A stretch of 64,000 bases of DNA from Vulcanimicrobiota bacterium. Its GTDB lineage: Bacteria; Vulcanimicrobiota; Vulcanimicrobiia; Vulcanimicrobiales; Vulcanimicrobiaceae. Where the stretch lies: positions 139,769-203,768 of the forward strand of contig DAIDGX010000026.1 of assembly GCA_027452165.1 (NCBI GenBank), written 5' to 3'. Both the position numbers and the translations under genes were made by a program. Below are positions 29,817 through 33,481 of the stretch, piece by piece. Under the pieces are notes generated by a model, which did no database searches, was not told where the DNA came from, and saw nothing but the letters and a program-made list of their open reading frames with translations. Position 1 is the first letter of the stretch. Each line of letters opens with the position of its first letter.

Positions 29817-30258
29817 GGGACGGTGGTGGAATTGGCAGACACAGCAGACTTGAGGAAATCTCCTTGAGCCGTACGATGGGAAACCGCGTGCGGGATGCGT
29901 TCAAAGTCGGCGAACTCTACTCGTAGCTCGAAAGGCCTACGAACGACAACGCCGAGCCAAACCCAAATTGCAATGGTTGCGAGCAGCCGGTGGGGGACCC
30001 GCGAAGCGGGGGCGCGCAGGACCGAAGTTCCGTAGCGCGTTCCAAGGATGTGGGGCCCCCAAGTTGCGAGCAGCAACTTGGGGAGGTGTAGAGACTGGAT
30101 GGACGCAGTCTAAGCGCGTTTACGAACGCGTATGACTAAGGCACAGTCCGGACCAACAAATCGCGGCGGTGCGCGCACCGGTGCGAGTGGCGAAAGCCAT
30201 AGTGGTGCGAAAATTTGCCGCTCGTGAGAGCATGCGGGTTCGATCCCCGCCCGTCCCA
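29817..30258 (+). tRNA. tRNA-Leu (TAA) interrupted by a group I intron
   Basis: Exon 1 is 29817-29851 and exon 2 is 30210-30258. Joined, they make an 84-nt class II tRNA: acceptor GGGACGG with CCGTCCC and discriminator A, D arm GGTGGAATTGGCAGACA, anticodon stem GCAGA/TTTGC with loop CT-TAA-AA, a long variable arm (CGCTCGTGAGAGCAT) and T arm GCGGG-TTCGATC-CCCGC. CCA is not encoded. The intron splits the anticodon between U34 and A35, the position used in cyanobacterial and plastid tRNA-Leu(UAA). Confidence 0.93.
29852..30209 (+). ncRNA. Group I intron in tRNA-Leu(UAA)
   Basis: 358 nt, beginning after the exon U and ending in the expected G. Conserved core elements can be aligned by eye with the Anabaena tRNA-Leu intron: TTGAGCC near the 5' end, GGATGCGTTCAAAGTCGGCG (P3/P4), CGCCGAGCCAAACCC closing P4 (TCGGCG with CGCCGA), P5 TCGTAG with CTACGA, GGTGTAGAGACTGGATGGACG (P7 and guanosine site), P8 CGCGTT with AACGCG, and ACAGTCC (P7 3' strand, GACTG with CAGTC). 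A long extra hairpin CCCCAAGTTGC/GCAACTTGGGG lies before P7. No homing endonuclease frame. Presumably self-splicing with external guanosine. Confidence 0.9.
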
Positions 30259-32050: not shown

Positions 32051-32075
32051 CACGCGGGTGTACGATACCTAAGGA

Positions 32076-32246
32076 TTCCTCGTTAGGTGAGGCGTCTGCG
32101 CGAACATAAGCCGCTACCCGGAAAGGTCGAGAGACCCCAATGGGTGACCAGGAACCGTCGAATCAAGGCGTTTCCTAACGCGGCTGTGAGGCGAACCGAA
32201 AGGTCGCCCGCTACGGCGTGCAGTGCTAAAACTCGACGTTGAGGGG
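32076..32246 (+). promoter_or_regulatory. M-box (ykoK) Mg2+ riboswitch
   Basis: Conserved stretches of the M-box aptamer occur in the right order: CCTCGTTAGGTGAGGC, GCCGCTACCCGGAAAGGTC, GAGACCCCAATGGGTGACC, and CAGTGCTAAAACTCGACGTTGAGG, where CCTC and GAGG close P1. Length ~170 nt as in B. subtilis mgtE. An intrinsic terminator follows at 32280, giving a transcriptional off-switch at high Mg2+. No Mg2+ transporter gene follows. Confidence 0.92.
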
Positions 32247-32279
32247 TTGCACGACGTCGTGAGACGTATTGTGATTTCG

Positions 32280-32632: not shown

Positions 32633-33481
32633 ATGATGCATGTGCTGCTGGCCGCAGTGCTCGCCGGCATCGCGCCGTCGCCATCGCCGGCGCCGCGCAC
32701 GGTCGCCACGCAACCAAGCGATCCCTGTGGCGGACCGACGCGCATGCTTGCAACGCTGAATCGTCCGACGATCGGCTACAGTGCGTGCGCGGTGAAAGCA
32801 GGCTCGGTCGTCTTCGAAGAAGGCTATCAATCGCAGGTCAACGGTACGCGCGGCAGCGGCTCGTCGTACCTCGATCAATATCCGCAGAGTTTCGTGCGCT
32901 TCGGTGTTGCCAAGCGCTTCGAACTCGATCTCATCGGGCCGTCGTACAATCGCGTGGCCGCACCGGATGGCACGGGCGGCCTTGCGCGAGCGCACGGCTA
33001 TTCCGACGGCGGACTCGGTTTCAAATACGAGTTCGTGCCCGCCGGTAAAACGACGTTCGCCATCGACGGGCTCTACACGTCGCCGAACGGCACGCCCGGT
33101 TTCACCGCGGGCGGCGCGACCGCGACGGTCAACCTCGATGTCGCCTATGCGATAAGCGGTGCCCTCAACGTCGGAACCACGCTCTCGGCCCAAGCGGCAA
33201 GCGGGTACGACGCGGCCGGGCAGGCCGCGCGCTACGGCTTGCTGCAGCCGTCGTTCGTGGTGACCGACCTCTTGCCGGGGGCGACCCAGCTCTACGGCGA
33301 GTACGTCTATAGCTCCAAGCTCGCTCCGGACCAGGGCGGACGCGCCTTTCTCGACGGTGGGGTGCAGAAGTTGCTCGGGAAGCGCTTCGAGCTCGATGTC
33401 GAGGTCGGCCAATCGCTGATCAGCGACCCGTCCAAGCGTTTCCACTACATCGGCGTGGGCATCGGCTGGGAGCTGCGATAA
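32633..33481 (+). CDS. Exported outer-membrane beta-barrel-like protein
   Basis: 282 residues. A short hydrophobic N-terminus acts as signal; an APSPSPAPRTV linker and two cysteines (SDPCGG, YSACAV) follow; the rest is alternating strands with aromatic ends (VNGTRGSGSSYLDQYPQSFVR, LGFKYEFVPAGK, FHYIGVGIGWEL), resembling the MetA-pathway-of-phenol-degradation type barrels (PF13557-like; from memory). Ends with aromatic Trp-x-Leu-Arg, typical of barrel C-termini. It is the first sizeable gene after the M-box and may be under its control if transcription reads through. Confidence 0.7.
   Translation: MMHVLLAAVLAGIAPSPSPAPRTVATQPSDPCGGPTRMLATLNRPTIGYSACAVKAGSVVFEEGYQSQVNGTRGSGSSYLDQYPQSFVRFGVAKRFELDLIGPSYNRVAAPDGTGGLARAHGYSDGGLGFKYEFVPAGKTTFAIDGLYTSPNGTPGFTAGGATATVNLDVAYAISGALNVGTTLSAQAASGYDAAGQAARYGLLQPSFVVTDLLPGATQLYGEYVYSSKLAPDQGGRAFLDGGVQKLLGKRFELDVEVGQSLISDPSKRFHYIGVGIGWELR

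Follow-up and report, generated by a model that had tools for sequence, protein, structure and literature searches.

A group I intron in the tRNA-Leu(UAA) gene of an Eremiobacterota genome, with a dispersed palindromic element in its P6 helix

An insert that splits the anticodon of a tRNA-Leu(UAA) gene in a bacterium of the Eremiobacterota/Vulcanimicrobiota raises the questions of what it is, whether it can still be spliced and how long it has resided there. A tRNA-Leu(UAA) group I intron was reportedly described in J Bacteriol in 2002 from a deep-subsurface gammaproteobacterium, and more generally tRNA introns of this type are already known; Eremiobacterota is a new phylum for them. A search of the available literature returned nothing relevant linking Eremiobacterota, WPS-2 or Vulcanimicrobiota to tRNA introns; published records of group I introns in tRNA genes come from cyanobacteria and from alpha- and betaproteobacteria (PMC4033280). 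The locus lies in a 64-kb stretch of DNA (the window, in which position 1 is the first letter), for which a first-pass annotation had proposed an endonuclease-free group I intron in a non-cyanobacterial host, leaving open a horizontal transfer or an older, wider distribution. Very probably, the sole tRNA-Leu(UAA) gene detected in this genome carries a long-resident group I intron without endonuclease, mostly inherited with its locus, often lost (including in both same-genus relatives), maintained by structural selection and holding a palindromic element in P6. What is usually a cyanobacteria-and-chloroplast story would thereby become that of a widespread, endonuclease-free Eremiobacterota resident with many losses.

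The interrupted gene and its empty sites

With introns allowed, ARAGORN called a tRNA-Leu (taa) with a 358-nt intron exactly where it had been claimed, whereas with introns disallowed it found no tRNA at 29.8-30.3 kb. On the forward strand, the 5' exon (29817-29851) extends from the acceptor to U34 at 29851, ends in ACUU and has uninterrupted orthologues at two loci (L014, L019). The intron occupies 29852-30209, between U34 and A35, and is followed by the 3' exon (30210-30258), which starts with AAAAU and runs to the discriminator A73, CCA not being encoded. The last base of the 5' exon is U and the final intron base is G, and a U.G pair is formed with the internal guide GAG (29866-29868). None of the three longest ORFs across the intron had a Pfam match, in line with the proposed absence of a homing endonuclease.

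Two relatives of the same genus (G001 and G002) present the uninterrupted junction GACTTAAAATTTGCC, with exons 96-98% identical to those of the window tRNA and a shared gene neighbourhood, which in the window comprises Ppx/GppA, DUF2630, an FMN-binding protein and an NADH:flavin oxidoreductase. Because the tRNA is uninterrupted and the flanking genes are the same, these are orthologous empty sites, and together with the ARAGORN call they bear out the proposed split at U34/A35. Elsewhere in the window, an M-box magnesium riboswitch is found at 32072-32250 (135 bits); the next sizeable ORFs downstream of it (e.g., 32633-33481) look by eye unlike a Mg2+ transporter.

Among the 44 tRNAs detected in the 95%-complete host genome, the other leucine anticodons are UAG, CAA, CAG and GAG; a second, intact tRNA-Leu(UAA), which would have spoken against the intron, is not among them, although another could be missing given this degree of completeness. 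In 11 genes of the window, 6 of 294 leucine codons are UUA. With UUA codons in use and no UAA tRNA found besides the interrupted gene, splicing should be needed, and on these sequence grounds it is probably essential to the host. Moreover, these genes escape standard annotation (Rfam, plain tRNA finders), and such genomes therefore seem to be devoid of a UUA-reading tRNA.

Intron structure, covariation and detection

The intron displays the core features of group I, i.e., a P3-P9 core with its P3/P7 pseudoknot and conserved P, Q, R and S stretches. As read from the sequence, P1 (29849-29868) pairs exon CUU and intron GAGG with CCUUGAG, placing the U.G pair (29851.29866) at the 5' splice site, and all aligned homologues retain the GAG guide (columns 20-22). 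P2 with its GAAA loop (29869-29893) makes up helices 1 and 2 of the drawn structure. The following helices were taken from the drawn structure and the alignment. The 5' strand of P3, GCGUUC (29897-29902), pairs with GGACGC (30101-30106), and P4 (29907-29912 with 29950-29955) encloses P5. The P6/P6a region (29956-30087) has an expanded loop, with P6 formed by 29956-29958 and 30085-30087 and P6a by CCC (29962-29964) and GGG (30080-30082). In the guanosine-binding helix P7, the 5' strand GACUGG (30093-30098), invariant in all 30 copies, faces the 3' strand CACAGUC (30142-30148) with its bulged A30143. P8 (30107-30137) pairs AGUC (30107-30110) with GACU (30134-30137), and the P9 region (30152-30206; 30152-30156 with 30202-30206) includes a GAAA-capped hairpin at 30188-30199. 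The layout agrees with subgroup IC3, P5abc being absent and P5 short, although P6, with a short extension in this subgroup, is enlarged by an element in the window copy; by anatomy, the intron would be of the tRNA IC3 type.

The hand-drawn P2-P9 structure, pseudoknot included, comprises 56 pairs and was tested on 30 aligned copies from Eremiobacterota. In this alignment, 98.1% of cells pair, compared to 87.1 +/- 0.5% after shuffling (none of 500 shuffles reached 98.1%) and to 27-39% when partner strands were slid, and 27 of the 56 pairs show changes on both sides. The window copy is the most divergent in the core tree, yet it retains every drawn P2-P8 pair. Compared to its 29 relatives, it has U-A instead of an otherwise universal C-G in P3 (columns 55-293) and in P8 (columns 299-347), as well as A-U in P8 (columns 297-349), where 27 of the 29 have G-C; it lacks one P9 pair and part of the variable P9 hairpin (P9b). 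Such a pattern indicates a fast-evolving copy that appears to be still under structural selection.

Detection by covariance models was less straightforward. The match to Rfam Intron_gpI (RF00028) that had been suggested as a check did not materialize, the locus giving none at the gathering score nor at E=10, and none of the Eremiobacterota intron loci searched matched at gathering. Under a lax threshold, the highest score among three tRNA-Leu relatives from Eremiobacterota was 30.4 bits (gathering score, 50), and a Pseudomonadota-type copy obtained 36.8 bits. The model works but is narrow, as two other group I introns of the phylum, in tRNA-Tyr and tRNA-Asn, reach 91 and 78 bits, respectively. 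Lack of a covariance-model match, put forward earlier as evidence against a group I intron, would therefore mislead here because the Rfam model is insensitive to this subfamily; a RF00028 match is a detection tool and not a defining biological feature. On the contrary, a covariance model built from relatives with the window copy left out (R1) matched the intron in two pieces, at 29894-30005 (E 3.8e-18) and 30009-30159 (E 2.4e-9), and nothing else significant across the 64-kb window. Structure, covariation and this match all agree with the group I identity that had been proposed.

Judging from this architecture, the intron would be self-splicing with a guanosine cofactor. In the transcript, P1 would pair the CUU end of the 5' exon with the GAG guide, and an exogenous guanosine held in P7 would attack at the U.G splice site, just downstream of U34. 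Once released, U34 would in turn attack after the terminal G, joining the exons and restoring the UAA anticodon.

A palindromic element in P6 and in RNase P RNA

The P6 segment spans about 125 nt in the window, compared to 17-63 nt in the relatives compared, and its loop has taken up a copy (29992-30082, forward strand) of a dispersed palindromic element of ~95 bp. The extra GC-rich hairpin of the first-pass annotation is therefore real; it is not a peculiarity of the intron, since a model built from other copies of the element with the window copy left out (R2) matches it with 57.5 bits (E 1.6e-8). The element consists of a closing stem rich in G, a hairpin in the center and a CCCC...GGGG hairpin at the end, and in P6 it would fold on its own.

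Genomes of the window's genus and one genome of another genus (G105) hold 5-9 copies each. Five were detected in the window's genome (G000), three of them in catalytic RNAs, namely one in the intron and two in the RNase P RNA gene (L229 539-737, G000:C19:117538-117736). The rnpB genes of G001 and G002 (see L181 and L182) similarly contain two copies each, which are inverted there and in tandem in G000; alignments of G001 and G002 place the site by position in P12. In G105 (L268), a similar element sits in the same P6 loop of an intron with intact core motifs. Other relatives (L003, L141, L075) carry a different repeat, CCCTGAGC...CGAAGGG, in P5, P6 or P9 of the intron. Peripheral intron loops and an RNase P RNA helix are thus recurrent landing places. 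Another copy of the element precedes a partial tRNA-Ala duplicate in G001.

Cyanobacterial RNase P RNA carries STRR repeats in P12. The P6b stem-loop of the cyanobacterial tRNA-Leu intron is also described as collecting repeats (PMC4476775). Repetitive DNA thus occupies the same two peripheral helices, although the window harbors a ~95-bp palindromic element rather than short tandem repeats. That a single palindromic element occurs in two ribozymes of the same genome points to catalytic RNAs as possible landing sites for short repeats. We tentatively propose, as a possibility somewhat short of even, that a small mobile palindromic element of Eremiobacterota prefers peripheral helices of catalytic RNAs (P6, P12), since it folds by itself and leaves the ribozyme working.

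Relatives, distribution and history

The closest known likeness is with the tRNA-Leu(UAA) introns of Pseudomonadota (mostly Alphaproteobacteria), which share the gene, the U34/A35 site, the short P1 guide pairing, the core and the terminal G, and which, at about 200-260 nt, are too short for an endonuclease gene. They differ by alternative base pairs in P3, P4 and P8 and form a separate clade; a P4 pair that is C/U-G in Eremiobacterota is G-C in these homologues, and P7 of Eremiobacterota has an extra G-C pair beside the bulge. As such introns are also common in Pseudomonadota, the textbook cyanobacterial and plastid frame of the first-pass annotation is too narrow. By published accounts, the cyanobacterial and plastid intron (Anabaena type) shares tRNA, site and small tRNA intron class. 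Alphaproteobacterial tRNA-Arg(CCU) introns (Agrobacterium, Bartonella BbgpI) have a nearly identical R motif and core, but lie in another tRNA at another site and in a separate clade; BbgpI has been shown to self-splice in vitro and is also spliced in vivo (PMC7717549).

Over the whole phylum, R1 matched in 57 of 149 Eremiobacterota genomes. Once tRNA-fMet loci (G035, G047, G048 and G053, read from flanks), tRNA-Tyr (G059), tRNA-Asn (G056) and a weak match in G010 are set aside, about 50 of the 149 genomes remain as carriers of the tRNA-Leu intron; full sequences were read for about 30 distinct copies. Carriers span two families of the class and, where flanks were examined, share a syntenic locus. 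A motif scan, whose pattern derives from the Eremiobacterota-type clade and is not expected to retrieve cyanobacterial introns, named carriers in Candidatus Eremiobacterota/Vulcanimicrobiota, in Pseudomonadota and in one Actinomyces; a search of phages gave no match, and one clade-specific pattern had none in viral contigs.

In a core tree of 123 rows and 148 columns, all 30 Eremiobacterota copies fall on one side of a branch with 100/100 support, and Pseudomonadota Leu and other introns on the opposite side; only this deep split was used, because of the few columns and of the very long window branch. On a Ppx tree of 32 loci with a ppx neighbor, presence and absence of the intron require eight changes. 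Intron and Ppx agree on several nearest neighbors (L003-L035, L012-L109-L022, L016-L020-L010, L054-L141). With P6 excluded, the introns nearest to the window copy among those compared are those of G105 and L035, then L013 and L003; Ppx likewise places L035 and L003 closest to it. Intron and Ppx distances correlate weakly (r 0.27, p 0.025) when the deep family and the window copy are set aside, and not significantly once these are included. On the whole, descent seems to have been mostly vertical, possibly alongside transfers within the phylum. Whether such distributions go back to a single ancient intron or to an anticodon reached several times can now be tested on a much broader sample.

A recent horizontal transfer of a cyanobacterial (or another phylum's) tRNA-Leu intron, followed by local spread, could account for the patchy presence and for the empty sites within the genus, and tRNA-Leu introns do travel, since a complete alphaproteobacterial-type copy lies beside a resistance gene on a clinical plasmid and more than 1,000 plasmid records match. 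This scenario is nevertheless unlikely, as the Eremiobacterota copies form one clade well apart from those of Pseudomonadota, occur in two families at one syntenic locus where checked, include a window copy close to those of its nearest host relatives, and gave no viral counterpart with the clade-specific pattern. Between the two origins considered at first, the older distribution fits better at the phylum level, the recent transfer being less favored: the sequence comparisons, made within Eremiobacterota and against Pseudomonadota introns, gave no sign of a recent import from cyanobacteria and favor an old, phylum-wide intron with mostly vertical inheritance and repeated loss.

The very long branch, the palindromic element in P6, the losses in P9 and P9b and the blindness of RF00028 to the window copy might instead denote a degenerate relic that no longer splices. 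We consider this very unlikely, given that no drawn P2-P8 pair is missing and that P3 and P8 have undergone compensatory changes, that P7 and the surrounding conserved core, the exons and the splice-site bases are intact, that a host using UUA codons has no other UAA tRNA detected, and that the intron of G105, which also has such an element in this loop, retains intact core motifs. Finally, the failure of the Rfam group I model would also suit an enzyme-spliced intron of the archaeal/eukaryal BHB type or an assembly artefact; both are ruled out, for all practical purposes, by covariation, by the R1 matches and by the presence of the intron in about 50 separate assemblies, in addition to its length, P1-P9 anatomy, U.G site and terminal G.

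Other tRNA introns were encountered. On clinical plasmids, an unannotated tRNA-Leu(UAA) with a group I intron of alphaproteobacterial type adjoins an aac(3)-IId / AAA-ATPase module; a complete copy lies at about 3463-3763 of L230 (pCTX-M3, NC_004464.2, about 61.8-62.1 kb), another (L231), close to IS26, no longer has its 5' exon, and the intron matches in 1,273 plasmid records. Within Eremiobacterota, group I introns interrupt tRNA-Tyr(GUA) in L263 (G059) and tRNA-Asn(GUU) in L269 (G056), both above the Rfam gathering score. A second intron family of the phylum occupies, by its flanks, the initiator tRNA-fMet (L262, L264, L265, L266 and L267, in G047, G053, G054, G048 and G035, respectively), so that Eremiobacterota mirror the Leu/fMet intron pair of cyanobacteria; one of these loci, L265, encodes a PDDEXK_5 endonuclease domain (E 1.5e-29).
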